Shown here: positions 11,524-35,135 of the stretch, piece after piece | Position numbering within the stretch: position 1 is the first letter of the stretch | Layout of the letters: every line of letters begins with the position of its first letter | Origin: Acidobacteriota bacterium | Lineage (GTDB): Bacteria; Acidobacteriota; Terriglobia; Acidiferrales; UBA7541 | Direction of reading: 5' to 3' | DNA length: 64,000 nt | NCBI GenBank assembly: GCA_013286465.1 | Contig: JABDFR010000008.1 | Location: 1 to 64,000, forward strand | Notes under the pieces: generated by a model | The model's input: the letters and a program-made list of their open reading frames with translations, nothing else | The model's database searches: none | What the model was told of the DNA's origin: nothing | Position numbers and translations under genes: made by a program

Positions 11524-11542
11524 GGGAAAGTGCGAATACAAA

Positions 11543-13471: not shown

Positions 13472-13487
13472 GGATTGTATTTCTCGG

Positions 13488-14864
13488 TCACGCATCGCTA
13501 CGACTTAGTATTGCGCGGGGATGGCCTAGCCAGGCGTCTAGGCCTCTGGCTGCCGCCATGCCTTCCGCTACCGCGTCAACAACTTCTTTGCCGCCGTTTA
13601 CGCAGTCGCCAGCTGCGAAATATTTTGGGTTGCCGGTTTGATTTCTCTCGTTCACGGCGATGGTGCCATTTTTTTTGAGTTCGATCCCCTTCACTGGGCG
13701 CAGGAATTCAGTTACTGGTTTTTGGCCTATTGCGGGAACTACCATGTCGACGGGAATCACGAAATTGGACCCGGGAATCGCTTCGGGCGCGGAGCTCTTA
13801 GTGGCGCCGGAGGCTGGTCGCGTTTTCACGCACTCTAGGCCTGCGACTGCGCCGGATTCTGCGATCACTCGGATTGGTTGCGTGTGCCAGTGGAACATTA
13901 CCGTGTCGCGCTGGGCTAATTCGAATTCGTAGCGGAAGGCTGGGATTTGGGATTCGCCGCGGCGATAAATTAAGTGGACGGATTCTGCGCCGAGGCGGTG
14001 GGCTGCGGTGACGACGTCGATTGCTGTGTTGCCTGCGCCTATGCAGGCTACTCGGCGGCCGATTTCTACTTCTGCGAAATTGCGCGTTTTGGTTCGTTCG
14101 ATGAATTCGAGGGCGTTGTAAACACCATGCAGATCGGAGCCTGGTAAATCTAGAGACCAGGTTTCGCCTAGACCTACGCCTATGAAGATGGCATCGAATT
14201 GCGATTCTAGGAGTGGGAATGGGGCGTCGCGGCCTACTTCTTTACCTTGCTCGAATTTGATGCCGAGACGCTTGACCATTTCTACCTCGCGTAGGGAATC
14301 TTTGGCGCGGGTTTTGTAGGCGGCTATGCCGTAGGTGTTTAGGCCGCCTGGTAATTTATTTTTGTCGAAGATGGTTGCGGCGTAGCCCCATTTTGCTAAT
14401 TCTGTGGCGCAGGCTAGCGAGGCTGGGCCTGAGCCAATGCAGGCTACTTTTTTTCCGTTTGGTACGCCTGCGGTAAAGAGATCGATGTTGCAATCCAGGA
14501 CGTGATCGACCGAGTAACGCTGCAGGCGGCCAATTTCGATTGCTTGCTCGCCTTTTTCTACCATTACGCAGGCACCTTCGCAGAGGGATTCTGTGGGGCA
14601 GACTCGGCCGCAACTTTCACCTAGGATATTTGCGCTTAGGATTACGCGGGCTGAGCCGCGTAGATTATTGGAGGCGATTTTTTTTATGAAGGATGGGACG
14701 TCGATGTGCGTGGGGCAGGCGATGGTGCAGGGGGCGTCGAAGCAGTAGAGGCAGCGGGCGGCTTCGATCGCGGCTTGCCTTGGCGTCATGCGCGGGGAGA
14801 TATCCGCGAAATTCGCTTCGTATTGTTCGGGCGCGAGTTTTGGAGCAGTTTCGCGGAGAGTCAT
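13488..14864 (-). CDS. preT: Dihydropyrimidine dehydrogenase subunit PreT
   Basis: The product has 458 residues and is related to the glutamate synthase small subunit. The N-terminus holds the cysteine clusters for 4Fe-4S centres: C38, C41, C46, C50 and C85, C89, C95, C99. An FAD fold (GSGPASLACATELAKWG) follows near residue 135, and the NAD(P)H-binding fold (CIGAGNTAIDV) near 272. It passes electrons from NAD(P)H to PreA. It is the first gene of the minus-strand pyrimidine operon and is divergent from dihydropyrimidinase. Confidence 0.92.
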   Translation of the reverse strand: MTLRETAPKLAPEQYEANFADISPRMTPRQAAIEAARCLYCFDAPCTIACPTHIDVPSFIKKIASNNLRGSARVILSANILGESCGRVCPTESLCEGACVMVEKGEQAIEIGRLQRYSVDHVLDCNIDLFTAGVPNGKKVACIGSGPASLACATELAKWGYAATIFDKNKLPGGLNTYGIAAYKTRAKDSLREVEMVKRLGIKFEQGKEVGRDAPFPLLESQFDAIFIGVGLGETWSLDLPGSDLHGVYNALEFIERTKTRNFAEVEIGRRVACIGAGNTAIDVVTAAHRLGAESVHLIYRRGESQIPAFRYEFELAQRDTVMFHWHTQPIRVIAESGAVAGLECVKTRPASGATKSSAPEAIPGSNFVIPVDMVVPAIGQKPVTEFLRPVKGIELKKNGTIAVNERNQTGNPKYFAAGDCVNGGKEVVDAVAEGMAAARGLDAWLGHPRAILSRSDA

Positions 14865-15183
14865 TCGCTCGATTTCCCAAGAGGCGCGATTTTTTCGAAG
14901 GGTGCGGATCGCGCGTCTACGAGTGATGCGGTGCTGATGGAGGATTCTAGCACCCGGATTTCTCGGTGCGCGGGGGGATTTTCCGGCGGTTTCCGTGTGC
15001 GGCTGGCAGAAATGTCAATCAGAGCGTTGGAATTGAGATTTCGGGCCGGCCATGACTCTGAATGTTGCTGACTTTTGCGGTCGTGGGAGCCGGCAGGGAC
15101 GCCAGCGGTACGGGGGTTGTGCTACATTCCGGCGGTTGGCGAATCTGGTTGGTTGATTGTATCTTGCAGTTCGAGAGGAATGG
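14865..15183. other. Divergent intergenic region between preT and dihydropyrimidinase
   Basis: This 319-bp stretch separates two divergent catabolic units and should hold both promoters. A family A repeat occupies 15087-15111. I see no convincing operator palindrome or riboswitch. An AGAGGAA ribosome-binding site lies just upstream of the ATG at 15184. Confidence 0.6.
15087..15111 (-). repeat. REP-like element, family A variant
   Basis: The GCTGGC/GCCGGC hairpin is preceded on the minus strand by GTAC instead of GTAG. Confidence 0.6.
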
Positions 15184-16575
15184 ATGCGACTGGATACTGT
15201 TATTCGCGGCGGGACTATTGTTACGGCTTCGGACACTACTCGGGGCGACGTGGGGATTCTTGGCGACAAGATTGTTGCCATTGCGCAGGATCTCAATCCG
15301 GAGAATGCTTCGCGGGTGATTGACGCGGCCGGGCGCTATGTGATGCCTGGCGGGATTGATGTGCATACGCATTTGGATATGCCGTTTGGCGGGACTAAGA
15401 GCGCGGATGATTTTGAGTCGGGGACTATTGCGGCGGCGCATGGCGGGACTACTACGCTGATTGATTTTGCGATTCAGTATAAACGGCAGACTTTGCGGCA
15501 TGCGTTTGATACTTGGATGGCGAAGGCGGACCGCAAGGCGGCTATTGATTATGCGTTTCATTGCATTATTACGGAATTGGGTGACGCGCACGTGGAGGAG
15601 ATGGGGGCTTTGGTGCGCGAGGGGGTGCCTTCGTTCAAACTTTTTATGGCTTACCCGGGCGTGTTTATGCTCGACGATGCTTCGATTTTCCGGGCCATGC
15701 TGGCTGCGGCTAAGTATGGCGGGATGATTTGCATGCATGCGGAGAATGGCGGGGCGATTGATGTGATCGTGCAGCGGGCGTTGGCGGAGGGGAAACGGGC
15801 GCCGAAGTATCATGCGCTCACGAGGCCGACGACGGCTGAGGCGGAAGCTACTTCGCGGGCGATTGCTTTGGCGGAGATGGCTGGGGCGCCGGTTTATATC
15901 GTGCATTTGTCTTGCAATGACGCTCTCGAGAAAGTGCGCGAGGCTCGGGATCGCGGGTTGGCGGCTTATGCGGAGACTTGTCCGCAGTATCTTTATCTTT
16001 CGCTGGAGAATATGGATGCGCCTGGTTTCGAAGGGGCGAAATATGTTTTTACTCCGCCGCTGCGGGAGAAATGGAATCAGGAAAAACTTTGGCAGGGTTT
16101 GGCTAAAGATACGTTGCAAGTTGTTTCTACCGATCACTGCCCGTTTTGTTTTAAGGAGCAGAAGGAGCTTGGACGGGACGATTTCACTAAAATTCCTAAT
16201 GGCGGGCCGGGGATTGAGAATCGGATGAGTTTGGTTTTTTCTGGCGGGGTGAATGGCGGGCGTTTTTCTGTGAACCGGTTTGTGCAACTCGTTTCGACCG
16301 CGCCGGCGAAATTGTTTGGGCTTTATCCGCGTAAGGGGACTATTGCGGTGGGGTCGGATGCGGATATTGTGGTGTTTGATCCGAACGAGGAGATGGTGAT
16401 TAGCGCTTCGACGCATCATATGCGGGTGGATTATTCGATGTTTGAGGGGATCCGCGTGAGGGGTGTGGCGAAAATCGTTTTGTCGCGGGGGCGGGTGATT
16501 GTGGAAGACGGCGAGTTCAAAGGCCGCGCCGGCTCCGGGGAATTTATCAAGCGGCGGCAGTATTCGGGAGTTTAA
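15184..16575 (+). CDS. hydA: Dihydropyrimidinase
   Basis: The product has 463 residues and belongs to the cyclic amidohydrolase family with a binuclear zinc site. Metal ligands include H61 and H63 (DVHTHLDMP), the lysine to be carboxylated K152 (PSFKLFMAYPG), MHAENG and the STDHCPF aspartate. It opens dihydrouracil or dihydrothymine to N-carbamoyl-beta-amino acids, step two between PreTA and beta-ureidopropionase. The ATG at 15184 has an AGAGGAA site; an upstream ATG at 15157 is less likely. Bacterial members are also called D-hydantoinase, and hydantoinase activity cannot be excluded. Confidence 0.92.
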   Translation: MRLDTVIRGGTIVTASDTTRGDVGILGDKIVAIAQDLNPENASRVIDAAGRYVMPGGIDVHTHLDMPFGGTKSADDFESGTIAAAHGGTTTLIDFAIQYKRQTLRHAFDTWMAKADRKAAIDYAFHCIITELGDAHVEEMGALVREGVPSFKLFMAYPGVFMLDDASIFRAMLAAAKYGGMICMHAENGGAIDVIVQRALAEGKRAPKYHALTRPTTAEAEATSRAIALAEMAGAPVYIVHLSCNDALEKVREARDRGLAAYAETCPQYLYLSLENMDAPGFEGAKYVFTPPLREKWNQEKLWQGLAKDTLQVVSTDHCPFCFKEQKELGRDDFTKIPNGGPGIENRMSLVFSGGVNGGRFSVNRFVQLVSTAPAKLFGLYPRKGTIAVGSDADIVVFDPNEEMVISASTHHMRVDYSMFEGIRVRGVAKIVLSRGRVIVEDGEFKGRAGSGEFIKRRQYSGV

Positions 16576-18106: not shown

Positions 18107-18132
18107 GATGCCGGCAGGGACGCCGGCGCTAC
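18107..18132 (-). repeat. REP-like element, family A, overlapping a stop codon
   Basis: On the minus strand, GTAG is followed by the GCCGGC hairpin. Its TAG (18129-18131) is the stop codon of the 263-residue repeat protein. Confidence 0.8.
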
Positions 18133-18920
18133 TTTCGAGGATCTTTGGCGTTGCCTCGCCGGGCCACTTCGCGGCGGAGGTACATCTTTAGGTTTGGGTT
18201 GAGGCTGTCTAGCGTGGAGATATCTTTCAGATCGCGCATGGTTAGATTGGGGAGAAAGGCCAGGACGATATTTAGCGGGGTGTGGCGATTGCGCACGAGA
18301 GCTAGGCGGACATTGTAGCTGCTGGACCATCTGGGATGGCGAGCTATCGCGCCGACTACGCGATCCGGGGTCTCGGAGCGCGAGAGCGATTTCAGGATTT
18401 GCGCTTCGGTGAGCAGCGGATTGGTGAGTGCGGCTGAGACGGCTTGGGCGTGGCCTTCGTTTAGGATTGCGCCGACGACGCGTGCGGGTCCGCGCTTGGC
18501 TAGCGTGAGTTTCTGGCCGATTGGAAGTTGCGGAATTTTGGAGATCAGTGCTTCTTCCGAGAGGCGACGCACTTCGGCTTGTGCGGTGGTGGCTAGCGCG
18601 AGGCGGACCAGGTCGAACGGGAAGAGCTGGCGCACCATGGTCATGGCGACCTGACGCGGCGCGTGAGGGTGCGCGGCCAAGCCAAAGCGCACTTCTTCGG
18701 AGGCTAGGAATTTCTTCTGCAACGCGATGCCACTGAGTACGCGTTCGGAAGTATCGAGGCGTTCGAGTAGAACGCGGATGTGCGACTCGTCGAGATTGGG
18801 ATTTTCGAGAATGCCGAGTAGTACGTTTTCGTCCTTCTCATGCACGAGCATTGCGAGATCTTGCTGAGAGGCTCCGCGCGCTAGGGCGATGTCGTCGAGC
18901 GGACCGGGATCAGTTGGCAT
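18129..18920 (-). CDS. Helical-repeat protein (LRV/DUF2336-like)
   Basis: The product has 263 residues, with no signal peptide or membrane segment. Short alpha-helical units recur (VLLGILENPNLDES, RFGLAAHPHAP, VSAALTNPLLTE, VGAIARHPRWS, RLALVRNRHTP), like leucine-rich variant or HEAT-type repeats used for protein binding. Its start overlaps the end of the amino-sugar kinase gene by 11 bp, so the two are cotranscribed. The stop codon comes from a repeat element. The function is unknown. Confidence 0.7.
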   Translation of the reverse strand: MPTDPGPLDDIALARGASQQDLAMLVHEKDENVLLGILENPNLDESHIRVLLERLDTSERVLSGIALQKKFLASEEVRFGLAAHPHAPRQVAMTMVRQLFPFDLVRLALATTAQAEVRRLSEEALISKIPQLPIGQKLTLAKRGPARVVGAILNEGHAQAVSAALTNPLLTEAQILKSLSRSETPDRVVGAIARHPRWSSSYNVRLALVRNRHTPLNIVLAFLPNLTMRDLKDISTLDSLNPNLKMYLRREVARRGNAKDPRK

Positions 18921-19842
18921 CGGCGGCGCGGCCTGCCGCCGTCCGGGCCATCTGGGCGGCAGCTTCGGCCGGGGAAGTTTGCAGCGGCCCGATGGTGGCG
19001 CGGTTGGCGATGGCGGCTAGGCGAGCATCGACGATCGAATCGAGATACGCGCAATGGCCGAAAACGCCTCCCGCGCGAACTAGCGGAAATTTCTCGCCGG
19101 TCAAGCCGAGCTGGCGAATGACGTGATCAGCAAGCTCGACTAGTGCGTCGGCGGCGGAATCCAGGATATTTCGCGAAACTTCATCACCATGTTGCGCGGC
19201 GCGTGCTACCAAAGGATAGACGCGCGGGAAAACTTCATCGGGATTCTTGGCGATGTGTTCGATCAAAGTGCCCCAGTTGCGCCACTCGAGATTCTTAAAA
19301 ACTCGATCGGAAAGTTCTGTGGCCGGCCCGAGGCCGTCCTCGTGCCGCCGCACGGCGGTGAGCGCGCTGCGGCCGATGTCGAAGGCGCTGCCTTGATCGC
19401 CGAGCCACGGTCCCCAGCCGCCGGCTCGGACCGTCTTTCCGTGCGCGTTGCGCCCGTAAGCTACCGAGCCAGTACCGGCGATTAGCACGACGCCCACGCC
19501 CTTCTCAACCGCCGCGGCTAGCGCGATCTCGATGTCGCTGGTGACTTTGACCTCAGCCTTGGGAAACGAACGCTCTAGGAAAACACTCATGCGCTTGGCG
19601 ACTGCGGGACGAGCTGCGCCGCCGAATCCTCCGCAAATTCCGCGGATGTCGGTGGCTTTAAGAGATTGCCGGGCAAGCACTGTGTCCGCTGCGCCGCTAA
19701 CTGAGAACCATGCGCGGGTATAGCCGCTGCGCAGAGGATTCGATGGGCCACCTTGCGAGCGGCGAAGAACTTGGCCTTGAGAGTCGAGTAGGACACAGTC
19801 TGTTTTCGTGCCGCCGCCGTCGATTCCCAGAAAATACGACAT
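18910..19842 (-). CDS. BadF/BadG-type amino-sugar kinase (MurNAc/GlcNAc kinase)
   Basis: The product has 310 residues with the ASKHA kinase fold. The phosphate-1 loop GIDGGGTKTD is at residues 6-15; GTGSVAYGRNAHG (near 127) and GGWGPWLGDQGSAFDIG (near 142) are typical of N-acetylglucosamine and MurK-type N-acetylmuramic acid kinases. It would make the 6-phosphate sugar in the cytoplasm. The NamZ, NagZ and murQ genes downstream favour MurNAc as a substrate, by analogy with clostridial MurK, but specificity cannot be read from sequence alone. It is divergent from the symporter gene. Confidence 0.85.
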   Translation of the reverse strand: MSYFLGIDGGGTKTDCVLLDSQGQVLRRSQGGPSNPLRSGYTRAWFSVSGAADTVLARQSLKATDIRGICGGFGGAARPAVAKRMSVFLERSFPKAEVKVTSDIEIALAAAVEKGVGVVLIAGTGSVAYGRNAHGKTVRAGGWGPWLGDQGSAFDIGRSALTAVRRHEDGLGPATELSDRVFKNLEWRNWGTLIEHIAKNPDEVFPRVYPLVARAAQHGDEVSRNILDSAADALVELADHVIRQLGLTGEKFPLVRAGGVFGHCAYLDSIVDARLAAIANRATIGPLQTSPAEAAAQMARTAAGRAADAN

Positions 19843-19947
19843 GAACGATGCTCCTTGTGCGGTTCGCGCTTATCACGTGCGGGCTGGCTTTCCTTGACAC
19901 TTTGCGGAGCGGGCAGTTAGCATCGCGCCGCTCACTCAGACTACCGG

Positions 19948-21438
19948 ATGCGCATTCACCCCATCGATCTCGGAATCGTGATTCTGTATCTGGCCGGAGT
20001 CACGCTGCTGGGTGCGTGGTTTCGGCGCGGACAGAAAAATGTCCGCGATTATTTCCTCGGCGGCCGTACGGCGCCGGCATGGGCGCTGGCTTGCTCGATT
20101 GTCGCGACCGAAACTTCGACCCTCACCATCATCGGAACTCCGGCTATTGCTTTCGGCGGTAATCTGGGATTTCTTCAGCTTGTGATGGGCTATCTGGTGG
20201 CCCGGGTGGTTTTGTGCCTGGTGCTGGTGCCCCGCTACTTCCAGGGGGAATTCTACACGGCTTACCAGCTATTAGAGAAGAGGTTTGGGGGGAGGGTCCG
20301 GTCGGCGGGGGCTGGGGTGTTTTTGGTTACCAGGGCGCTGGCGGAGGGCGTGCGGATTGCGGCGGTGGGCAAAGTCGTGAGTTTGGCGCTGGGAACTGGT
20401 AGCCGGACGGCGATCTTGATTGTGGTTTTGCTCACGCTTTTTTACACCTTTGAAGGTGGGTTGAAGGCGGTGATTTGGACCGATGTGATGCAGCTGGCGA
20501 TTTATCTTACTGGTTCGGCGGTGGCTTTTTTCTTGCTGCTGCATCGGATTCCGGGTGGGTGGAGCGAAGTCACGCACGTAGCTGCTGCCGCCGGGGGAAA
20601 GCTGCGCGTCTTCGATTTCTCGTTTAGCCTGACGAAGAGTTATACGTTTTGGTCCGGGGTGATCGGCGGGACTTTTTTTAATATGGCTAGCCACGGGACT
20701 GACCAGACTCTGGTGCAGCGGATTTTGGCGGCGCGAAATGAGCGGGATGGCAAGGCGGCTTTGCTCGGTAGCGGCGTCATCGTGTTTGTGCAATTTGCGC
20801 TTTTTTTGGTGGTCGGGGTGATGCTGTTTGTGTTTTATCAGCATGCCGCGCCGGGAGTGGTGCCGTCCGATCCCGATCAGATTTTTCCGGCGTTTATCGT
20901 GACGCAAATGCCGTCGGGGATTGCTGGCTTGGTGCTAGCGGCGATTTTGGCGGTGGCGATGTCCAATGCCAGCGGCTCGTTGAACTCACTGGCGTCATCA
21001 AGCATTATGGATTTCGGACGCGGCCGCGGCGCGAGCGTTACCGGCGATACGCTTCGATCTTCGAGCGCGCTGCTGAGGCGTTCGCGATGGATGACGTTGA
21101 TTTGGGGCGTCGTTCTCGGAACTCTCGGGCTCGTTCGCTGGGGGCCGGTGTTGGTCGCTGGTTTGTCGATCGCGTCGATCACCTATGGCGCGATGCTCGG
21201 TGTTTTTCTGCTGGGGATTTGGAACTCGCGCGCAAACGCAACGGGGGCGATCACCGGAATGTTGGTCGGGCTGGCAACTATGGTCGCGGTGAATCGCTTC
21301 ACGTCGTTGGCTTGGACATGGTACGCGCTTACGGGGACACTGGTGACTTTCATGTCCGGATCGATCGTGAGCGCGATTTGGGGCGGCGGGCCGGCTCCTC
21401 GAGATATGGCGATTGGCAATAAAGGCATGAGCGCATGA
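19948..21438 (+). CDS. Sodium:solute symporter (SSS family)
   Basis: The product has 496 residues and about 13 transmembrane helices. SSS signatures are visible: the DYFLGGRTAPAWALACSIVATETSTLT segment near residues 35-60, the GGLKAVIWTDVMQ loop near 170 and a late AVAMSNASGSLNSLASSSIMD helix near 340. It imports a solute with sodium. Its position between an amino-sugar kinase and peptidoglycan hydrolases suggests amino sugars, possibly MurNAc. Its stop overlaps the next permease start as ATGA. Confidence 0.88.
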   Translation: MRIHPIDLGIVILYLAGVTLLGAWFRRGQKNVRDYFLGGRTAPAWALACSIVATETSTLTIIGTPAIAFGGNLGFLQLVMGYLVARVVLCLVLVPRYFQGEFYTAYQLLEKRFGGRVRSAGAGVFLVTRALAEGVRIAAVGKVVSLALGTGSRTAILIVVLLTLFYTFEGGLKAVIWTDVMQLAIYLTGSAVAFFLLLHRIPGGWSEVTHVAAAAGGKLRVFDFSFSLTKSYTFWSGVIGGTFFNMASHGTDQTLVQRILAARNERDGKAALLGSGVIVFVQFALFLVVGVMLFVFYQHAAPGVVPSDPDQIFPAFIVTQMPSGIAGLVLAAILAVAMSNASGSLNSLASSSIMDFGRGRGASVTGDTLRSSSALLRRSRWMTLIWGVVLGTLGLVRWGPVLVAGLSIASITYGAMLGVFLLGIWNSRANATGAITGMLVGLATMVAVNRFTSLAWTWYALTGTLVTFMSGSIVSAIWGGGPAPRDMAIGNKGMSA

Positions 21439-22841
21439 GCGCGGGTGCTCCGAAGAAGCCACTCGAACTTGTTCGCGGACTTGGCGTGTGGGCGGCGTCG
21501 GCGATTGTTGTCGGCACTATGGTCGGCACCGGGATTTTTCTGAAGCCGAGCCAAATGGCTGCGGAGGGCGGCTCGGTCAGCGTCGTTTATGCCGCATGGA
21601 TCGTCGGCGGATTACTTTCGCTTTTCGGTGCGCTCTCGTTTGCGGAGCTCGGGGCCGCGATTCCAGAAGCTGGCGGGCAGTACGCTTATTTGAGCCGCGG
21701 ACTTGGGCCGGTCTGGGGATTTCTTTTTGGCTGGATGCATTCGACGGTTGGGGAATCAGCCTCTGCGGCATCGATTGCCGCGGGCTTCGCGCGATTTTTG
21801 AGTGTTTTCGTTCCCGCAATCGCTGTGCCGCTTTTTACTTTTCATTTCACGGTTCCCTTCTCCGCCACGCCTTACGAATTTGCATTCACTTGGGCGCAGC
21901 CTGTTGCAGTGCTGGCGCTGGCGGTCTTCACGGTGATTAATTATTGGGGTGTTCGCATCGGTGGCCGCGTGCAAGTCGCGCTGACGGTGATCAAGGTGGC
22001 TTCGATCCTGGCGATCGTCGCCGCGGCGTTTGCGTTGGGCCACGGCAGCTCGGCGAATTTCCATCCGTTTTGGCCGACAAAAACTGGAGCTGCTACGTTC
22101 TCTAGTTTTCTGGCGGCGCTTGCCGCGGCGCTTTGGGCTTACGACGGTTGGGAGGATTTGAATCGCGTGGGATCGGAAGTGCAGAATCCGCAACGCAATT
22201 TTCCGATCGCCATGGCGGGCGGGACGATTCTTGTTGCTGGAATTTATTTGGTTTTCAGCGCGGTGTGCTTTTACGTGCTGCCTTTCGGGAGCGTGGCCAA
22301 TTCGCAGCATGTCGGCTCCGACGTGGTGCGGACATTTGCCGGTAGCGGGGCGGCGCGGTGGTTCACGCTGGTGATGATTGTTTCGGCGCTCGGAACGCTG
22401 AACTCATCGCTGCTGAGCGGGGCGCGCGTGCCTTACGCGATGGGACGTGATGGATTGTTCTTTCGGGTCACCTCCAGTGTCCATCCGACATTTCGCACGC
22501 CGAGCGGCGCGCTCATATTTCAGGGAATTCTCGCCAGCCTGATGGCGCTGAGCGGCACGTTCGAAGAGTTGACTTCCCTCTTCGTGTTCGCCGCCTGGAT
22601 TTTCTACGCGCTCTCGGTAGTAGCGATGTTCCGGCTGCGGCGGATTGCGCCGGATATGTCGCGGCCATTTCGGACTTGGGGATATCCGGTTGTGCCGGCG
22701 CTGTTTCTGGTGGGAGCTACGGCTTTGACGGTGAATTTGTGGATCGATCGGCCGCTGCGGTCTTCGATCGGGCTGGCTATGATTCTTTCGGGGCTTATTT
22801 TTTACCGGTATTGGAGCCGGCGAACGAATCGTGAGCGTTGA
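21435..22841 (+). CDS. APC-family amino acid permease
   Basis: The product has 468 residues and 12 transmembrane helices. The first helix has the APC substrate motif (VGTMVGTGIFLKPS near residue 28), and FAELGAAIPEAGGQYAYL follows near 70. It probably exchanges or imports amino acids, and translational coupling to the symporter suggests joint use. The peptides released from muropeptides would provide substrates, which is an inference. The last 47 bp overlap the convergent cobalamin-binding gene. Confidence 0.87.
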   Translation: MSAGAPKKPLELVRGLGVWAASAIVVGTMVGTGIFLKPSQMAAEGGSVSVVYAAWIVGGLLSLFGALSFAELGAAIPEAGGQYAYLSRGLGPVWGFLFGWMHSTVGESASAASIAAGFARFLSVFVPAIAVPLFTFHFTVPFSATPYEFAFTWAQPVAVLALAVFTVINYWGVRIGGRVQVALTVIKVASILAIVAAAFALGHGSSANFHPFWPTKTGAATFSSFLAALAAALWAYDGWEDLNRVGSEVQNPQRNFPIAMAGGTILVAGIYLVFSAVCFYVLPFGSVANSQHVGSDVVRTFAGSGAARWFTLVMIVSALGTLNSSLLSGARVPYAMGRDGLFFRVTSSVHPTFRTPSGALIFQGILASLMALSGTFEELTSLFVFAAWIFYALSVVAMFRLRRIAPDMSRPFRTWGYPVVPALFLVGATALTVNLWIDRPLRSSIGLAMILSGLIFYRYWSRRTNRER

Positions 22842-23757
22842 CCGGGTAACGAACACCCAAAGCCAAGCCGGGCGGGAGGTCAACCTCCGCCCCTACTGGA
22901 TGTAGCAAGTTGGCTAAGATTGCTACGCCGTCGGCCAGACGCGGACCTGAGCGCGAGAAATAACTGTTTGCGTCGACCATGTGGACGCGGTTGTTGCGCA
23001 CGGCTTGGAGTTGTTTCCATTCGGGCGGAAGAAGCGTGCGCTGGAGCTCGTCTTCGATGTGTTTGACGCTGAAGCCGCAGGGCATGATTACCATTACGTC
23101 TGGCTCCGCAGCGACTACTTGATCGCTCGTGACGCGGAATGACGGATGGCCAGCGCGGCCATGCACATCGACGCCTCCCGCAGCATCCACCATTTCCGGA
23201 ACCCAATGGCCGCCGACGTAGAGTGGATCGAGCCATTCGATGCAGGCTACGCGCGGGCGGCTGGCGGTGGCGCTCACTGCGGCGCGAATCGACGCGACCT
23301 TATTTTCTTGGCGCTTCGCAAATTCGTCCGCTTCGCGCGATTTCCCGGTGGCTTCACCGATGCGGCGGATATCGTTCCAGACGTCGGCGAGCGTGTGAGG
23401 TTGCAGCGTCAAGATGCGCGGCTGCTTCGGCATTTTGGCCAGGGCGGAGGCCAGATCGTCCGGCGACGCGGCGCAGACGTGGCAAAGATCCTGAGTGATG
23501 ATCAGGTCCGGCTGAATTTCGCGCAGGAGATCGTCGCGAACGGCGTAGAGGCTTTCGCCGCGGGCCATTAATTCACGGACGCTGCGGTCGAGGTCACCGG
23601 ATTTTGCATTTGGGTCGACGCGAGGGCCGATCAGAGCGGGTTTGGCGGCGGCTTCGGGCGGAAAATCGCATTCGTGCGTTACTCCGGCGACGGAATCGCC
23701 GAGGCCGAGAGCGAAGAGGACTTCGGTGGCGGATGGCAGCAACGAGCAGATTCGCAT
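22795..23757 (-). CDS. Cobalamin-binding protein (BtuF-like)
   Basis: The product has 320 residues and carries the periplasmic-binding fold of cobalamin/iron-siderophore receptors: ICSLLPSATEVLFALG at the start, GVTHECDFP, LIITQDLCHVC and VMIMPCGF. It lacks a signal peptide, so it may be a cytoplasmic cobalamin-binding variant common in soil bacteria. Homologues normally end near the ILANLLHP segment. Here a family D repeat follows immediately and the frame continues for about 30 residues, antisense to the permease gene. No cobalamin riboswitch is visible upstream. Confidence 0.85.
   Translation of the reverse strand: MRICSLLPSATEVLFALGLGDSVAGVTHECDFPPEAAAKPALIGPRVDPNAKSGDLDRSVRELMARGESLYAVRDDLLREIQPDLIITQDLCHVCAASPDDLASALAKMPKQPRILTLQPHTLADVWNDIRRIGEATGKSREADEFAKRQENKVASIRAAVSATASRPRVACIEWLDPLYVGGHWVPEMVDAAGGVDVHGRAGHPSFRVTSDQVVAAEPDVMVIMPCGFSVKHIEDELQRTLLPPEWKQLQAVRNNRVHMVDANSYFSRSGPRLADGVAILANLLHPVGAEVDLPPGLALGVRYPVNAHDSFAGSNTGKK
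22870..22896 (-). repeat. REP-like element, family D variant, inside a coding end
   Basis: On the minus strand, GTAG is followed by a GGGCGGAGGT/ACCTCCCGCCC stem. It lies in the last part of the cobalamin-binding gene, where it encodes V-G-A-E-V-D-L-P-P. Confidence 0.85.
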
Positions 23758-23776
23758 TTCAGCCTGCGACCTCGTC

Positions 23777-26200
23777 TCAATGATACAGCAGATATTTTTC
23801 GCGCATCTTGCGGAAGACGTCGAGATCGAATTGCCAATCTAGGACGATGCGCGATGGTGCGTCGCCGGCCTTGAGCCGATCGATCGTGGCGCTTGAGCCT
23901 AAGAGCTCTATCATTTTCGCGAGTTGAAAATTATTCGGGTACTTTTTATTTAGAAGCGAGGCGATTTCGAGGCCCATGAGCATCGCGTTGACGCTGGCGC
24001 GATCGGTGATTACGAGCGATAGAGCGCCGCAGAGCTGGCCCTTATACAAGTCTGATGATGGAGTGAAATGTGTCGGGACGAATCGCACGCCGGGAATAAA
24101 TTGGCGATTGAGCTCATCCGCGATCTCGACGGGATCGATCCACGGCGCCCCGAACATTTCGAACGGAGCGTCCGTGCCGCGGCCGACAGAAACTCCGGCC
24201 GCCTGCAGAATTTCTATTCCGGGATAGAGCAGCGCAGCGTTCAGGCTGCGCAGATTCGGCGACGGCGGAATCCACATGAGCCCAGTAGCGTCAAATCGAT
24301 CCTGACGATGCCAGTCCTTCATCGCAATTACATGGAGGTCCGCTCCAATATAATTTTCCGCGTTAAAGAATTGCGCGAGCTCGCCGAGCGTCATGCCGTA
24401 ACGCACCGGCATCGGAAAATATCCGGTGAAGGAAATGTTGGCGCGATCGAGCATTGGCCCTTCGATCGTTTCGCCATCGAGCGGATTTGGGCGGTCGAGA
24501 ACATAGAACGCGATATGCCTCTTCGCGGCCTCCTCCATCGCGTAGGCCATTGTGGTCGTGTAAGTGTAAAAGCGGACGCCGGCATCTTGAACGTCAAACA
24601 CCAGCGCATCGATCCCCTTCAGCATTTCGTCGGTAGGACGTCGCGTTTCACCGTACAGGCTGAAAACCGGGAGTCCCGTAGCAGTGTCGGTCGTCGATGC
24701 GACGTTCGCGTCCGCTGACCCAGCGAGGCCGTGCTCTGGACTGAAGATGGCGGCGAGCCGCACGCCCGCCGCATGCGCGAGCAAATCAATTGTTCGACGG
24801 CCGGCTGCATCGACGCCAGTTTGATTCGTGATCACGCCGACGCGCTTGCCCCGCAGTGGGGCGAATTGCTGCTCTTCGAGCACATCGATGCCGGTCTTCG
24901 TGTGATCGCTCGACGTCAACGTGCCGGCAAGATCATAAGGGCGAACGGCGTGAGCACTGCGGTCGATCGCCGAGCTCTCGCCCTGAGCAACGTTAATATG
25001 CAGAGCGGCAGCAACCGCCGTTGCCACCTTGCTGCGCAAACTGGAAATGGGCGGACGCCGGAATGGGTGAACCGAGTTCGTCAGCAAAATGACGAACGAC
25101 TCGCTCGCGGGATCGATCCAAATCGATGTGCCGGTGAAGCCTGTATGCCCGAACGAGCCGAGCGGGAAAAAATCACCTCGCGGCGATGAATACTGCGAGT
25201 CAATATCCCAGCCCAAGCCACGCACCGCCGGAACCCACGGCGGCGACTGCGGCGAAATCATTTTCGAGATCGAGGCCTGTGACAAAATCCGCTGACCTTT
25301 TCCTTTGGAAACAGTTCCGCCGTTCAACACCATCTCGCAAAACTTCGCGAGGTCGGCCGCATCCGAAAAAACACCGGCATTTCCAGCCACGCCTCCGACC
25401 GCGCGCGCCGTCGGGTCGTGCACCGAACCGCGCAGCATGCGGCCCTTACCCGATCCCGGCTTGTCGTCGTCGGCTAGCTCGACTTCCTCGGTCGGCGCGG
25501 TGCGCGCAATCCAGTCGGGCGATGGCACGAATCTCGTGTGTCGCATGTGCAGCGGCTCAAAAAGATTGACGCGCGCGTAGTTGTCGAGCGTCATGCCAGA
25601 CACCTTCTCGACCAATTCGCCGAGGACGATGAAGCCCGTGTCGCTATAGATGAATCGCATTCCCGGCGGAGCAAGCAGCGACTCGCGGTTGATTTCGGCT
25701 ACCAGCGAAAATATTCCGGCATGGGCTGCTTCAAACGGCGGATCAGGAGCCAAACCGCTGGTATGCGTAAGCAACATGAGAATGGTGATCTGATCTTTTC
25801 GGTTCGAAGCAAATTCGGGCAGGTAATGCACCACGGGATCGTCGAGCCGCAGTTTCCCTTCTTCGATGAGTTTCATCACCGCGGGCGCGGTGGCGACTAC
25901 TTTGGTGAGCGACGCGATGTCGAACATTGTGTCAGTGGTCATCGGCTCACGAACAGGCATCAGCGCGCGCATGCCGACTGCTTTTTCGTACACAATTTTT
26001 CCGCGATGCCCGACGAGCAGCACCGCGCCTGGAATTTCGGCGTGGTCGACGGCTGATTGAAGCACGGAATCGACGGATGAGAAATCCGGGACGCCCGGCT
26101 GGGACTGGCCGGAGCTGGATGGTGGTCCGAGAAATGCGATAACGATGCAGAGAATCAGGAATCGCAAAATTGTAGGTGGGAAGTCTGCGTTGTGTCGCAT
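23777..26200 (-). CDS. AmiE-like serine hydrolase / NamZ (DUF1343) fusion
   Basis: The product has 807 residues. A signal peptide or anchor (about 10-31) is followed by a beta-lactamase-fold (S12) domain, about 40-405, with S97-xx-K100 (SLTK), YSD at 185-187 and H352-TG. Residues about 435-807 are a DUF1343 domain with VGVITNQTGVD near 454-464 and the acidic SPEHGL motif. DUF1343 includes NamZ, an exo-beta-N-acetylmuramidase; the S12 group includes AmiE of Bacillus subtilis, which removes peptides from MurNAc. One exported protein could thus strip peptide and release MurNAc. It is divergent from the NagZ fusion across 100 bp. Confidence 0.9.
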   Translation of the reverse strand: MRHNADFPPTILRFLILCIVIAFLGPPSSSGQSQPGVPDFSSVDSVLQSAVDHAEIPGAVLLVGHRGKIVYEKAVGMRALMPVREPMTTDTMFDIASLTKVVATAPAVMKLIEEGKLRLDDPVVHYLPEFASNRKDQITILMLLTHTSGLAPDPPFEAAHAGIFSLVAEINRESLLAPPGMRFIYSDTGFIVLGELVEKVSGMTLDNYARVNLFEPLHMRHTRFVPSPDWIARTAPTEEVELADDDKPGSGKGRMLRGSVHDPTARAVGGVAGNAGVFSDAADLAKFCEMVLNGGTVSKGKGQRILSQASISKMISPQSPPWVPAVRGLGWDIDSQYSSPRGDFFPLGSFGHTGFTGTSIWIDPASESFVILLTNSVHPFRRPPISSLRSKVATAVAAALHINVAQGESSAIDRSAHAVRPYDLAGTLTSSDHTKTGIDVLEEQQFAPLRGKRVGVITNQTGVDAAGRRTIDLLAHAAGVRLAAIFSPEHGLAGSADANVASTTDTATGLPVFSLYGETRRPTDEMLKGIDALVFDVQDAGVRFYTYTTTMAYAMEEAAKRHIAFYVLDRPNPLDGETIEGPMLDRANISFTGYFPMPVRYGMTLGELAQFFNAENYIGADLHVIAMKDWHRQDRFDATGLMWIPPSPNLRSLNAALLYPGIEILQAAGVSVGRGTDAPFEMFGAPWIDPVEIADELNRQFIPGVRFVPTHFTPSSDLYKGQLCGALSLVITDRASVNAMLMGLEIASLLNKKYPNNFQLAKMIELLGSSATIDRLKAGDAPSRIVLDWQFDLDVFRKMREKYLLYH

Positions 26201-26300
26201 GTAACCGTGTGCTATATACAGCGACGGGATGATTGCGTCAATCCGCGCTTCAAATCTGGCTTCCTCGGTGTCGTCAATTCAGAAACATGGGCTGGAGTGA

Positions 26301-29210
26301 ATGCGTGGGCCTGCGGGTTTCCTGCTATGCTTAATTTTCGCAATGACACTCGCCGGCCGCGCGTCGAAATCCGCCACCGCTAAACCGCAGCGCTCCGCGT
26401 CATCGTCTGCCTGGGTGGACAAAACGCTAAAGAGCATGACGCTGCGCGAGAAATTGGGGCAGTTGCTCGTCGTGTATTTCTTCGGCGAATTTACCTCCAC
26501 CGAGAGCGGCGAATATAAGGATCTGGTGCGGCAGGTTACTGAGAATCATGTCGGCGGCTTTATTCTTGGAACGAAGCGGCAACCGTTGGGCATCGAGCGC
26601 GGGGGAGTTTACGTCGCCGCGGTGCTGGCGAATCAAATGCAGAAGCGCGCGAAGGTTCCGCTGATCGTTTCCGCGGATTTCGAGCGCGGAACCGCGATGC
26701 GCATCGATGAAGGCACCGGGTTTCCTTACGCGATGGCGGTTGCGGCGGCGGGAAATCCGAAAGACGCATATACCGTCGGAAAAGTCACGGCGCTTGAGGC
26801 GCGCGCCGCGGGAATTCAGTGGATTTTTGCGCCGGATGCCGACGTGAACGACAATCCCGATAATCCGATCATCAATGTGCGCTCGTTTGGCGAAGATCCG
26901 CAGAGCGTGGCGAAATTTGTCTCGGAATTTGTACGCGGCGTGCAGGAAAACGGCGGATTGGCTACCGCAAAACATTTTCCCGGCCACGGCGATGTGAGCG
27001 TCGATTCGCACCTGACGCTCGCGACTGTGCCTGGCGATCGGCAGCGCCTCGAAAGCGTCGAGCTGGTTCCCTTTCGCGCGGCGATTGCCGCGGGAGTTGG
27101 CAGCATCATGACCGGGCACCTCGCGACACCTGCATTCGAGCCCGATCCGGAATTGCCCGCGACGATGTCGCCGCACGTGCTTACCGATGTGCTGCGAAAG
27201 GAGCTTGGTTTTAAAGGGCTGATCGTCACCGACGCGCTCGACATGGGCGGGGTCACCACGCGGTTTCCGCCCGGTGAAGCGGCGGTGCGCGCTGTGCTCG
27301 CGGGCGCCGATGTGTTGCTGCTATCGCCGACGGTCGATGCGGCGCTCGAGGGACTGGAAGAAGCGGCGAAGAGCGGACGATTGCCGATCGCGCGAATCGA
27401 TGAATCGGTGCGGCGCATTTTGAGCGCCAAGGAAAAATTGGGGCTGGCGAAAGATCGCTACGTTGACGTGGACAAGCTCAACGCGAATTTTGGCAAGCCG
27501 GAATTCGAAGCTGCGGCGCAGGATATCGCGGACCGGGGCGTTACGTTGCTGCGCGACGACGCGCATCCGTTGCCTCTTGATGCGACCAAGCCGTTGCGGC
27601 TGCTGGTGGTAGCGCTTTCGGGCGATCCGGATGCTTTTCCCGGCGCTGATTTTGAATCGGAAATACGCGAGCACGTCGATAAGGTCACGGTGCTGCGCGC
27701 GGATACGCAATTCTCGAAAGTTCAGGCGCTGAAATTGCCGCCGCCGGAAAGTTACGATGCGGCCATCGTGGCCATTTGGGTGCGCGTCGCCGATCGAAAA
27801 GGCACGGTGGGATTGCCGGACGAGCAGGCGGCATTCGTGAATCAAATTGTGGCGTCGCCGAAGCCGGTGATCTTTGCTGGATTCGGCAGCCCGTATGTGG
27901 TCGAGCGCTTCCCTGCCGCGAAAACGTGGATCGCCGAGTTCAGCACGCAGGATGTCTCGCAACGAGCGGTGGCGCGCGCGATATTCGGGCAGATTGCGAT
28001 TTCGGGGAAAATTCCGGTTACCGTGCCGGGCGTGGTGACGCGCGGCGATGGCATTCATCTCGACGCGGCGCCGATGAAGCTTGAGCCGGCGAGTGCGCAG
28101 AGCTCTGCGCGATTGAAGAATGCGTTCGACATTCTGGATCGCGGCGTGGCGGATGGCGCGTTTCCCGGCGGAGTGCTTGCTGTCGGCCATGGCGACCAGC
28201 TTGTGATGCATCCATTTGGCCAGCTTACCTATGAAAAGAATTCCGCGGCTGTAACGGCCGACACGATCTACGATTTGGCGTCGCTGACGAAGCCGATGGT
28301 GACGACAACCGCGATCATGCTGCTCGCGCAAGAACATCGCATCGATATCACGCTGCCGATTTCGCGTTACTTGCCGGAATGGACGCTGGCTTCTGCCGCC
28401 GATCCGAATCCATCGTGGCGCGCGAAGGCTACCGTGCGCGATTTGCTGCTGCATGACGCCGGGCTTCCCGCGCACCGCGATTTTTATAAATCGGCGGACG
28501 GCAAGGGCGCGATACTGAAATTGGTGTTTGCGGAACCGCTGGTCCGCGAACCCGGCACACAAGTGGAATATTCCGATCTGAGTTTTATTTTGCTGGGCGA
28601 AATCGTTGAGCGGCTTACCGGAATCGATCTGGACGCCTTCGCTACGGATTATATTTGCGAGCCGCTCGGCATGGATCACACATTATTCTCGCCGGCGAAA
28701 AACCTGCGATCGAAAATCGCGCCGACCGAAAAAGATACGGAATACCGCGAAAAACAGTTGCAAGGCGAAGTAGATGATGCGAATGCTTCGGCTATGGGAG
28801 GCGTCGCGGGGCATGCGGGGCTTTTTTCCACGGCCGGCGACGTGGCCGTCTTTGCGCAGATGATGCTGAACGGCGGCATTTACGCGCATCACCGGCTCTT
28901 GGAGCGCGAGACCTTGGGGCAATTCACGGCGCGCGTGAAGATCGGCGATTCGGCTCGCGCGCTGGGGTGGGATGTGCCGGTCGAGCCTTCTTCTACTGGG
29001 AAATATTTCTCCGCGAAAAGTTACGGCCACAATGGATTCACGGGAACTTCTTTATGGATCGATCCTGAGAAGGATCTTTTTGTGATTTTGCTCACCAATC
29101 GCGTTTATCCCTCGGCTGAAAATATCAAGATCCGCGAAATACGCCCGCGTCTGCACGATGCCATTGTCGAAGGCCTCGGCCTCGTTTCCGGCCGCGCTGC
29201 TGGGCGATAA
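26301..29210 (+). CDS. NagZ (GH3 beta-N-acetylglucosaminidase) / AmiE-like serine hydrolase fusion
   Basis: The product has 969 residues with a signal peptide (about 1-22). Residues about 38-590 are glycoside hydrolase family 3: KHFPGHG at 224-230, D235-S-H237 and the nucleophile D311 (VTDALDMGG) are the NagZ signature. Residues about 600-960 are a beta-lactamase-fold domain with S661-LT-K664, VEYSDLSF and GHNGFTG. The GH3 part would remove GlcNAc from muropeptides outside the cytoplasm; the serine hydrolase part resembles AmiE. The ATG at 26301 has a GGAG site. murQ and murA follow in the same direction. Confidence 0.92.
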   Translation: MRGPAGFLLCLIFAMTLAGRASKSATAKPQRSASSSAWVDKTLKSMTLREKLGQLLVVYFFGEFTSTESGEYKDLVRQVTENHVGGFILGTKRQPLGIERGGVYVAAVLANQMQKRAKVPLIVSADFERGTAMRIDEGTGFPYAMAVAAAGNPKDAYTVGKVTALEARAAGIQWIFAPDADVNDNPDNPIINVRSFGEDPQSVAKFVSEFVRGVQENGGLATAKHFPGHGDVSVDSHLTLATVPGDRQRLESVELVPFRAAIAAGVGSIMTGHLATPAFEPDPELPATMSPHVLTDVLRKELGFKGLIVTDALDMGGVTTRFPPGEAAVRAVLAGADVLLLSPTVDAALEGLEEAAKSGRLPIARIDESVRRILSAKEKLGLAKDRYVDVDKLNANFGKPEFEAAAQDIADRGVTLLRDDAHPLPLDATKPLRLLVVALSGDPDAFPGADFESEIREHVDKVTVLRADTQFSKVQALKLPPPESYDAAIVAIWVRVADRKGTVGLPDEQAAFVNQIVASPKPVIFAGFGSPYVVERFPAAKTWIAEFSTQDVSQRAVARAIFGQIAISGKIPVTVPGVVTRGDGIHLDAAPMKLEPASAQSSARLKNAFDILDRGVADGAFPGGVLAVGHGDQLVMHPFGQLTYEKNSAAVTADTIYDLASLTKPMVTTTAIMLLAQEHRIDITLPISRYLPEWTLASAADPNPSWRAKATVRDLLLHDAGLPAHRDFYKSADGKGAILKLVFAEPLVREPGTQVEYSDLSFILLGEIVERLTGIDLDAFATDYICEPLGMDHTLFSPAKNLRSKIAPTEKDTEYREKQLQGEVDDANASAMGGVAGHAGLFSTAGDVAVFAQMMLNGGIYAHHRLLERETLGQFTARVKIGDSARALGWDVPVEPSSTGKYFSAKSYGHNGFTGTSLWIDPEKDLFVILLTNRVYPSAENIKIREIRPRLHDAIVEGLGLVSGRAAGR

Positions 29211-29250
29211 CTGGCAGGTCACACGCTGGGCTCACCGGCCGCTTCTTCTC

Positions 29251-30234
29251 ATGTGGCGCCGATTGAAACGTTATAATTCCGATGTGAAATCTCGCAGAGC
29301 TATATTGCCGGAAACGGAGCGGCGAAATCCTCGTTCGGCGGGGCTTGACCGAAAATCGACGATTGAAGTTTTGCGAATACTGAATCGCGAAGACGCCAGC
29401 GTGCCGCGAGCGGTGGCGCGCGAGCTTCCAGCGATTGCCCGGGCCGTGGATAAAATCGTGAGGGCTTTTCGCAGCGGCGGCCGGCTGATTTACGTTGGAG
29501 CGGGATCGAGCGGGCGGATGGGGGCGCTTGATGCCGCGGAATGTCCGCCAACGTTTGGCGTGCCGGAGACACAAGTGCAGGCGATTCTCGCCGGCGGATT
29601 GCGTGCGATGACGCACGCGGTCGAGGGCGCGGAAGATTCGCCGCGAGATGGCGCGAGGCAGATTGCTGCGCGGCGTGTGGGGCCGAATGACGTGGTGGTG
29701 GGAATCGCAGCGGCGGGGACGACGCCGTTTACGCTCGGCGCGTTGCGGGAATCGAGGCGGCGAGGCGCGACGACGGTGGCGCTTACGGCGAACCGGCGCA
29801 CTCCGATTGCGCGGCTGGCGGATATCGTGATCGCTCCGGCTACCGGGCCCGAAGTGATCGCGGGGTCTACTCGACTGAAGGCTGGGACTGCGCAGAAATT
29901 GGTACTGAACATGCTCTCTACAGCAGCGATGGTGCGGATGGGATTTGTATTCGATAATCTGATGATTAATGTGAGTTTGACGAACGAGAAGTTGCGGCAC
30001 AGGGCGGTGCGCATCATCGAATCAGCCAGCGGCATTCGAACGTCTTCGGTGCAACACGCGGTGCGTCAGGCGGGACACGATTTGCGCGCGGCGCTGGTGA
30101 TGCTGAAGGCGGGCGTAGATGCGCAACAGGCGCGCTGGTTGCTGGCGGCCAGCAAAGGCAATTTGCGCGAGGCGATTGCGACCGGGCTGCGCTTGCCTCG
30201 AACTAAAGACGGCGCGCACTCGAATCGACTATGA
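29251..30234 (+). CDS. murQ: N-acetylmuramic acid 6-phosphate etherase
   Basis: The product has about 327 residues and a sugar-isomerase (SIS) fold. It cleaves the lactyl ether of MurNAc-6-phosphate to GlcNAc-6-phosphate and D-lactate. TETERRN-like start region (PETERRNPRSAGLDRKST), IYVGAGSSGRMGALDAAECPPTFG and AVEGAEDS with the two catalytic glutamates, and SRLKAGTAQKLVLNMLST-type phosphate loop are all present. An alternative GTG start at 29284 would match family length better. A longer frame from 29158 would overlap the NagZ fusion and is less likely. MurA follows by 36 bp. Confidence 0.92.
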   Translation: MWRRLKRYNSDVKSRRAILPETERRNPRSAGLDRKSTIEVLRILNREDASVPRAVARELPAIARAVDKIVRAFRSGGRLIYVGAGSSGRMGALDAAECPPTFGVPETQVQAILAGGLRAMTHAVEGAEDSPRDGARQIAARRVGPNDVVVGIAAAGTTPFTLGALRESRRRGATTVALTANRRTPIARLADIVIAPATGPEVIAGSTRLKAGTAQKLVLNMLSTAAMVRMGFVFDNLMINVSLTNEKLRHRAVRIIESASGIRTSSVQHAVRQAGHDLRAALVMLKAGVDAQQARWLLAASKGNLREAIATGLRLPRTKDGAHSNRL

Positions 30235-30270
30235 GTGCGGGCTTAACGAACCTGGCAGACAGGCACTGAT

Positions 30271-31530
30271 ATGGATCGTTTCAAAATTGAGGGCGGACGG
30301 CGGCTCGAAGGCACGGTGCGCATCAGCGGGTCGAAGAATGCTTCGCTGCCGGCGATGGCCGCGGCGCTGCTCACCAGCGAGCCGGTGTGCCTGCAGAATA
30401 TACCCGGCGTGCGCGACATCATTACTATGGCCAAATTGCTGGCGCACATGCGGGCGCGTGTGGAGAGCCCGGATTTGCCGCCGAGCGAATTCACGATTGC
30501 CGCGGAAACAATTTCACATGCGGAAGCGCCTTACGAATTGGTGAAAACGATGCGCGCGTCGATTTTGACGCTCGGGCCGCTGGTCGGGCGATTCGGATTT
30601 GCGCGCGTTTCGTTGCCCGGGGGTTGCGCGATCGGCGCGCGGCCGGTCGATTTGCACATTCAGGCGCTTGAGAAAATGGGCGCGAAGATTTCGATCCACC
30701 ACGGTTATGTCGAAGCGCGCTGCGAGCGGCTGCGCGGCGCGCAAATTCATTTTGACAAAATCACCGTAACCGGAACGGAGAATATTTTGACTGCGGCTGT
30801 ATTGGCCGAGGGCGAAACCGTTCTTACCAATGCCGCGCGCGAGCCGGAAGTGACCGACCTGATCGAGCTGCTGATCAAAATGGGGGCGAAGATCGAAGGG
30901 CGCGGAACATCTACGCTGCATGTGCATGGCGTCGACAAATTGCATGGGGCGACGCACGCGGTGATTCCCGATCGGATTGAAGCCGGGACATTCATCGTCG
31001 CGGCAGCTATTACCGGCGGCGACGTGAAGCTCACGCACTGCGCGCCGCAGCATCTGACCGCGGTGATCGAGACGCTTGCGGCCTGCGGCGTGGAGATACA
31101 GAAGGAAGGAGTTTCTTGTTTGCGCGTGAGAGCGCCGAAAGCGCTGCGCGCCGCTGACATCACGACCGAAGAATATCCCGGCTTTGCGACCGACATGCAG
31201 GCGCAATTCATGGCGCTGGCTACGCAGGCTGAGGGCAAATCGGAGATCACCGAAACCATTTTTGAGAACCGCTTCATGCACGCGCAAGAAATGATTCGCA
31301 TGGGGGCGAATATTGCGATCGATGGGCATCGCGCCGTCGTTCAGGGGCCTACGCCGTTGAGCGGGGCTACGGTGATTGCTTCGGATTTGCGGGCGAGCGC
31401 GTCGCTCGTGCTAGCCGGTTTGGTCGCGTCGAATACTACTTACATTGACCGCATCTATCACCTAGATCGCGGGTACGAGAAGATCGAGGAAAAGCTGCAG
31501 GACCTCGGCGCCAGCATCGAACGGATATAA
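30271..31530 (+). CDS. murA: UDP-N-acetylglucosamine 1-carboxyvinyltransferase
   Basis: The product has 419 residues, full length. It performs the first committed step of peptidoglycan synthesis, adding enolpyruvate to UDP-GlcNAc. K22-N23 (SGSKNASLP) and the fosfomycin-targeted cysteine C119 ([11 protein letters not shown]) are present, and [16 protein letters not shown] with the catalytic aspartate lies near 300. It follows murQ by 36 bp, so recycling and new synthesis are probably cotranscribed. Confidence 0.95.
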
Positions 31531-31705: not shown

Positions 31706-31736
31706 GAACGGCCCCGCGGAGTGGCGGGGCCGTTTT
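31706..31736. terminator. Bidirectional intrinsic terminator between murA and pnp
   Basis: A 10-bp perfect stem (ACGGCCCCGC with GCGGGGCCGT, loop of 6) is followed by TTTT on the plus strand. It separates the convergent murA and pnp genes. Confidence 0.8.
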
Positions 31737-34532: not shown

Positions 34533-35135
34533 TCAGGACTTGGGAGTACTTACCAACGAAAGAAATTCGTCGCGTGTCTGTTTGTTCTCGCGGAAGGCGC
34601 CGAGCATGGCGCTGGTCATCGCCGAGGAATTTTGCTTTTCGACGCCGCGCATCACCATGCACAAATGGCGCGCTTCGATAATGACGCCGACACCCTCAGG
34701 ACTCAATTTTTCCTGAATGGCATTGGCAATTTGACTGGTGAGCCGTTCCTGAATCTGCAAACGCCGCGCGTACATATTCACGAGCCGCGCAATTTTGCTA
34801 AGGCCGATCACTTTCTTCTTGGGAATGTAGGCGACGTGGCACTTGCCGAAGAAAGGCAGCAAGTGATGCTCGCACATGCTGAATACTTCGATATCTTTCA
34901 CGACCACCATCTGGTCGTAGCAGACGCTAAAGACCGCGCCGTTGAAAAGTTTTTCCGGGTCCTGCCGGTATCCGCTGGTCAAAAATTGCAGCGCCTTGGC
35001 AAAACGCTCCGGCGTCCGCTGCAATCCCTCGCGGTTAGGATCTTCGCCAAGCTGCACCAATATTTTTCGCACTAGATCGGGAATCGTCTCAGTGGCAGGG
35101 CTGAGGGATATGGTGGTTTCAGTAGTTTCTTTCAC
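34533..35135 (-). CDS. folE: GTP cyclohydrolase I
   Basis: The product has 200 residues. It converts GTP to dihydroneopterin triphosphate. Zinc and active-site motifs are visible: [10 protein letters not shown] near residue 87 and the [10 protein letters not shown] segment near 157. Its start overlaps the stop of the first PTPS gene by 4 bp (ATGA), so it ends a four-gene chain of overlapping reading frames. Its product is the direct substrate of PTPS. Confidence 0.96.

Follow-up and report, generated by a model that had tools for sequence, protein, structure and literature searches.

The first 64,000 nucleotides of contig JABDFR010000008.1 from an Acidobacteriota bacterium (assembly GCA_013286465.1), a stretch referred to here as the window, carry an island at 18910–31530 which we read, with a probability of about 0.8, as a locus for the salvage of muropeptides and N-acetylmuramic acid (MurNAc). 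Two predicted secreted fusion enzymes lie within it, one joining a beta-lactamase-fold (BL) domain to the exo-muramidase NamZ (BL~NamZ) and the other joining the glycosidase NagZ to a second BL domain (NagZ~BL). Around them are genes for a BadF-type kinase, an SSS-family symporter, an APC amino-acid permease, MurQ and MurA. As genome anatomy the finding is solid, namely in its gene content, motifs, fusions and conserved linkage, and from these we infer the substrates, the order of cuts, the amidase activity, the direction of transport and what MurA and the permease contribute. A sequence-only reading of the same DNA had placed all of the genes just named at these positions and in these families, which open reading frames, domain searches and intact motifs confirmed; it had overlooked a BtuF-like gene (22795–23757, minus strand) inside the island. 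Its proposed route of extracytoplasmic release, uptake, phosphorylation and MurQ is supported by domains, motifs, linkage and parallels in Tannerella and Bacillus subtilis.

In the proposed pathway, both secreted fusions would attack peptidoglycan fragments at their non-reducing end. NagZ would take off N-acetylglucosamine (GlcNAc), and the BL domain of NagZ~BL would then free the exposed MurNAc of its stem peptide. Remaining peptide would be removed by the BL domain of BL~NamZ, after which NamZ could free the naked MurNAc and expose the next GlcNAc. The symporter would import MurNAc, probably GlcNAc too, the kinase would make MurNAc-6-phosphate, probably also GlcNAc-6-phosphate, and MurQ would convert MurNAc-6-phosphate to GlcNAc-6-phosphate and lactate. 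NagA and NagB, encoded elsewhere, would lead on to fructose-6-phosphate, MurA could return amino sugar to new wall, and the APC permease probably imports the liberated amino acids.

BL~NamZ (23777–26200, minus strand, 807 aa; PF00144, PF07075 and PF20732) and NagZ~BL (26301–29210, plus strand, 969 aa; PF00933, PF01915 and PF00144) diverge from an intergenic region of 100 bp (26201–26300), and both begin with a hydrophobic stretch that resembles a signal peptide by eye. The first BL domain (residues 44–381, 25058–26071, minus strand; PF00144 254 bits) has intact S97-L-T-K100, Y185-S-D and GH352TG motifs, and the NamZ domain (residues 454–806, 23783–24841, minus strand; PF07075 279 bits, PF20732 143 bits) has the catalytic-type Glu489 within PE489HG. 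S97xxK100, Y185SD, H352TG and Glu489 are invariant in 42/42 aligned fusions from several phyla, and His490, adjoining Glu489, is kept in 40 of the 42. The GH3 N and C domains of NagZ~BL (residues 47–580, 26439–28040, plus strand; PF00933 308 bits, PF01915 38.9 bits) carry KHFPGHGD...DSH and align with B. subtilis NagZ (3bmx, residues 26–627) over both domains, and the second BL domain (residues 611–940, 28131–29120, plus strand; PF00144 212 bits) carries SLTK, YSD and GHNG. An AlphaFold model of BL~NamZ gave confident domains whose orientation to each other was not fixed (mean pLDDT 86.9, pTM 0.56).

For both BL domains the best-scoring family was PBP4B, and they are 34% and 38% identical to the PBP4B of Escherichia coli, YfeW. 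By fold and motifs they are AmiE/PBP4B-like, and a putative MurNAc-L-Ala amidase role would suit the pathway. The fold and the S-x-x-K/Y-S-x motifs are common to class C enzymes, and the domains might instead be genuine beta-lactamases or DD-peptidases with a protective role, placed beside sugar genes by chance. We regard this as very improbable, as scores with class C models stay far below the cut-offs, at least 42 divergent proteins join such domains to peptidoglycan glycosidases and retain every motif, and the best-scoring family, PBP4B, belongs to the murQP operon of E. coli.

In a tree of BL domains, those fused in front of NamZ formed one group (support 97/98), and those behind NagZ formed another together with free-standing BL proteins adjoining MurQ (support 96/96). 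A recent duplication was considered as the source of the two window domains and rejected on these two supported groups; the two window fusions are thus not recent copies of each other. On this sequence evidence the BL domains belong to two old and distinct lineages, each of which goes with a glycosidase of its own. NamZ requires peptide-free MurNAc. In B. subtilis, the action of NagZ precedes that of AmiE, going by the title of a study cited in PMC6987092. Taken together, an amidase is wanted after NagZ and before NamZ, and the two lineages fit a division of labour between NagZ~BL and BL~NamZ.

The kinase gene (18910–19842, minus strand; PF01869 136 bits) encodes a putative MurNAc/GlcNAc 6-kinase of the BadF/MurK/NagK type. 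Its closest solved relative is 8zo3, annotated as 'N-acetylmuramic acid/N-acetylglucosamine kinase' (E 7e-33), with which it has the motifs D-x-E-I-A-L-A, GTGS..YGRN and GGWG in common. It has GGW at the SPL site of TfMurK and S-D where TfMurK has T before the catalytic D. Its lactyl pocket has no bulky Glu/His of the kind that keeps MurNAc out; the GGW pattern also occurs in human NagK and in 8zo3, so that it does not separate MurK from NagK. Dual specificity for MurNAc and GlcNAc is likely from these sequence features. The symporter (19948–21438, plus strand; PF00474; TIGR00813 221 bits, cut-off 184) is a putative MurT-like MurNAc/GlcNAc importer, and its best solved relative is 5nv9, which we take to be the sialic-acid symporter SiaT. 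In relatives its homologue is fused to BL~NamZ, which ties this symporter to the release of MurNAc, and in several of them the kinase gene adjoins the symporter gene or the gene of this triple fusion (SSS~BL~NamZ).

Use of chitin or GlcNAc oligosaccharides was weighed as another explanation for these parts, with NagZ~BL trimming chitooligosaccharides, the symporter importing GlcNAc and the kinase being a plain NagK. RmNag3, a characterised NagZ~BL, cleaves chitobiose and p-nitrophenyl-GlcNAc (pNP-GlcNAc) (PMC6987092), the kinase also matches the NagK model, below its cut-off, and a GH20 gene lies near one related locus (L059). Against it, the conserved partners NamZ and MurQ are without a role on chitin and the best solved match of the kinase is a MurNAc/GlcNAc kinase, and we consider chitin use improbable.

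MurQ (29251–30234, plus strand; TIGR00274 358.9 bits, cut-off 302) shares 47% identity with its E. coli counterpart. Its start is probably at 29251 or 29284; the first ATG of the open reading frame (29158) is unlikely, because it overlaps the NagZ~BL stop. The presence of MurQ argues for the catabolic branch rather than the AmgK-MurU-MupP bypass. MurA (UDP-GlcNAc enolpyruvyl transferase; 30271–31530, plus strand; 578 bits, cut-off 393) starts 36 bases past the end of MurQ, and a single copy was found in the bacterium's own genome (66% complete). NagB is present in this genome. NagA scored above cut-off in 11/11 relatives tested; it is near MurQ in G009, and in L059 a NagA-like gene lies about 1.4 kb from the kinase gene.

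Conservation of the gene grouping was followed in two samples. A search for the BL~NamZ fusion covered 149 genomes of the phylum, from which 40 regions were taken (best matches and neighbouring cases), and 80 named loci, all encoding BL~NamZ, came from an independent scan without selection by neighbours. At least one of kinase, symporter, MurQ and GH3 was found within 10 kb of BL~NamZ in 55/80 named loci, many of whose contigs end early. By gene, the counts within this distance were 36 for SSS, 20 for MurQ, 14 for APC, 12 for MurA and 11 for GH3. For MurQ this is 25% observed versus about 1% by chance in our own estimate, which takes a genome of about 4.5 Mb to hold one or two true MurQ genes. 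The SSS counts are weaker evidence of linkage, because genes of this family are frequent in the genomes concerned. In one locus (L117), the seven-gene order of the window is identical, BtuF-like gene included, at 48–63% identity. Thus co-conservation in related genomes, on the absence of which the sequence-only reading would have had to be given up, was found. L117 comes from a distant metagenome-assembled genome (MAG) labelled 'Bacillota' (HOT.MB2.40); either this label is mistaken or the island may have moved between phyla. Kinase, MurQ, SSS, NagZ and BL~NamZ follow consecutively in L038, and the same genes are present in L035 and L048. The gene set recurs in many acidobacterial families and in one planctomycete, Singulisphaera acidiphila (Planctomycetota), with SSS, BL~NamZ, MurQ and kinase in a row. 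BL~NamZ fusions were seen in L110, L113, L118, L119, L138, L142 and L149, labelled as Pseudomonas, Nitrospirae, Syntrophaceae, Armatimonadetes, Verrucomicrobiales and Desulfobacterales.

How far the module extends is a matter of even balance. It might consist of kinase, symporter, the two fusions and MurQ, with MurA, the APC permease (21435–22841, plus strand; PF13520 196 bits) and the BtuF-like gene (Peripla_BP_2; PF01497 70.5 bits, without an obvious signal peptide) as passengers. Compact clusters without MurA and APC (L035, L038, L048 and L080), in which kinase, SSS and MurQ are contiguous or nearly so, speak for this, and the BtuF-like gene, a likely passenger, recurs at the same place in L117 only. 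On the other side, SSS-APC pairs near BL~NamZ in 13 and MurQ-MurA pairs in 11 named loci are above what would be expected of passengers. The pair of APC and SSS stays beside BL~NamZ in Bryobacterales loci, and BL-MurQ-MurA stands beside BL~NamZ in four genomes of the window's class and in many named ones, which explains the place of MurA.

Some observations weigh against the salvage reading. A fold search placed esterases first for the BL part, and the PF00144 family includes esterases, DD-peptidases and D-aminopeptidases. Searches of the bacterium's own genome, at its 66% completeness, did not bring up NagA. Among the named loci, 25/80 are without a partner within 10 kb, though many contigs end early. 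In the window, 8 kb and two divergences separate the kinase and symporter genes from MurQ, and the island is therefore not one operon. Finally, an AnmK gene lies elsewhere in the genome (G000:C11) and none in the island, so that an anhydro-muropeptide route probably also runs.

A narrower explanation is that the locus recovers only the cell's own turnover products and not foreign peptidoglycan. B. subtilis applies the same enzyme set to its own turnover (PMC5061867), and anabolic MurA is linked to MurQ in many relatives; AnmK, however, already serves anhydro products from elsewhere in the genome, and an SSS importer with exo-acting hydrolases would equally suit feeding on dead neighbours, a distinction that sequence cannot make. 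Restriction to the own wall is a serious possibility, to which we give less than even weight.

Larger fusions occur in relatives. SSS~BL~NamZ is a single open frame of about 1,400 aa in 14 loci (L056, L059, L060, L062–L066, L073–L077 and L106). It is present, with 1,374–1,574 residues, in 8 of the 14 genomes sampled from one family of the window's class, and named records include Edaphobacter lichenicola, Edaphobacter modestus, KBS 146, a Granulicella MAG and two more. Assembly errors were considered as their origin and rejected, given 14 loci including isolate genomes and 66–72% identity among the aligned proteins. The five that were placed in the BL tree form one clade (100/100), for which a single origin is enough, and in neighbours of the fused forms (L050, L081, L083 and L084) SSS and BL~NamZ are separate genes that are adjacent or overlapping. 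At L059, GH20, NagA-like amidohydrolase and HSP70-like genes immediately precede the kinase and SSS~BL~NamZ genes (1077–5785), and in G049 GH20, NagA-like, HSP70-like and kinase genes stand beside the triple fusion.

In every SSS~BL~NamZ, the last symporter helix is followed by a short basic stretch and then, ahead of the BL domain, by a hydrophobic segment that in many cases ends in an A-x-A-like site (e.g. AHSAVAQ, VVSAGMAQ). By its sequence, this joining segment looks like the former signal peptide of the hydrolase. It would form a 14th helix and leave the enzymes in the periplasm, or cleavage there may release them; an AlphaFold model of SSS, linker and BL has a helix at 512–528 with low confidence. 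A tethered hydrolase facing the cytoplasm was also considered, and the periplasm is more likely, since the extra hydrophobic segment follows a basic stretch. Another arrangement is a single 1,349-aa frame of NagZ~BL~NamZ in G015 (L061:7175–11221); in G066 (L070), NagZ~BL and NamZ are adjacent genes, and the BL domain there is the tree sister of that in G015. Tentatively, and with more doubt than confidence, wall-sugar salvage in the phylum might be the work of physically coupled machines. Two old, independent amidase-fold lineages would each have been wired to one glycosidase for alternate stripping of the chains, and Acidobacteriaceae would in addition have anchored the amidase/exo-muramidase to its own symporter, or deliver it there co-translationally, with MurNAc being cut and swallowed at one site.

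Within the window, the start codons of the divergent kinase and symporter genes are separated by 105 bp (19843–19947), with one sigma70-like match at 19894–19923 in a scan whose total was not above chance. The symporter stop and the permease start overlap by 4 nt, a usual sign of coupled translation. A 263-aa protein without a Pfam match (18129–18920) overlaps the kinase stop with its start by 11 bases and is probably co-transcribed with the kinase. The probable right border of the island is a strong stem of 11 bp (31707–31734, minus strand) in the gap between MurA and a convergent PNPase gene. Just left of the island ends a probable cluster for reductive pyrimidine degradation (5474–16575; carbon-nitrogen hydrolase, aldehyde dehydrogenase, PreA- and PreT-like subunits, and D-hydantoinase/dihydropyrimidinase). 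Other parts of the window hold a DUF1501/DUF1800 pair (207–3465), two tandem, overlapping and diverged pterin-synthase-like genes followed by a GTP cyclohydrolase I-like gene (34533–36054, by eye), and an arginine biosynthesis cluster (51592–60246; semialdehyde dehydrogenase, class-III aminotransferase, argininosuccinate synthase and ArgJ among others).

Dead microbial cell walls are a large pool of nitrogen and carbon in soil, and the conserved locus offers a testable route by which soil bacteria could feed on them. Which symporter takes up the product is strongly indicated, at the level of sequence, by the SSS~BL~NamZ polypeptide, a natural enzyme-transporter fusion that is available in cultured genera.

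Among known systems, the pathway, the set of symporter, kinase and MurQ, and the NagZ~BL fusion (as RmNag3) have been described before. Literature searches returned no report of a BL~NamZ or a transporter~hydrolase (SSS~BL~NamZ) fusion, which shows little, as key NamZ papers lay outside their coverage. RmNag3 of Rhodothermus marinus is a GlcNAcase with a GH3 and a C-terminal beta-lactamase domain, for which its authors suggested a link to peptidoglycan turnover (PMC6987092). It shares with NagZ~BL the order GH3, GH3_C, beta-lactamase (PF00144) and a signal peptide (here read by eye); RmNag3 is not part of any muropeptide cluster and was not shown to act as a peptidase, whereas the window's NagZ~BL adjoins BL~NamZ, MurQ and uptake genes. 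In E. coli, murQ-murP is followed by yfeW, the gene of PBP4B, which is the nearest curated family for both island BL domains; unlike in the island, it is free-standing, uptake is by a phosphotransferase system (PTS), and the cluster is without NamZ or a secreted NagZ.

Amidase-fold, NagZ, NamZ and MurQ functions stand together in the B. subtilis cluster murQ-murR-murP-amiE-nagZ-ybbC(namZ) (PMC5061867), where amiE, nagZ and namZ are indeed separate genes of a pathway ending in MurQ, as the sequence-only reading had stated. The island has these predicted functions in common with it and would share the stepwise extracellular breakdown followed by MurQ; of the B. subtilis type it also has the two-domain GH3 NagZ with KHFPGHG...DSH and a NamZ (GH171) with the conserved Glu. 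B. subtilis uses separate genes, the PTS transporter MurP for uptake and phosphorylation, and the regulator MurR, whereas the island has two fusions and a symporter with a separate kinase, and no MurP or MurR gene was found among its open reading frames. The experimentally known MurNAc uptake set murT-murK-murQ of Tannerella forsythia (PMC5790795, PMC10465942) has in common with the island an importer of the sodium symporter family (in the island a putative one for MurNAc), a BcrAD/BadFG-family kinase and MurQ. The Tannerella genes form one operon with no hydrolase fusions described, whereas in the island kinase and symporter on one side and MurQ on the other flank the hydrolases. By sequence, the uptake and phosphorylation parts thus match the Tannerella murTKQ type and the enzymes the Bacillus amiE-nagZ-ybbC type, and the locus would join, in abundant soil bacteria, two halves of MurNAc metabolism that have been studied separately.

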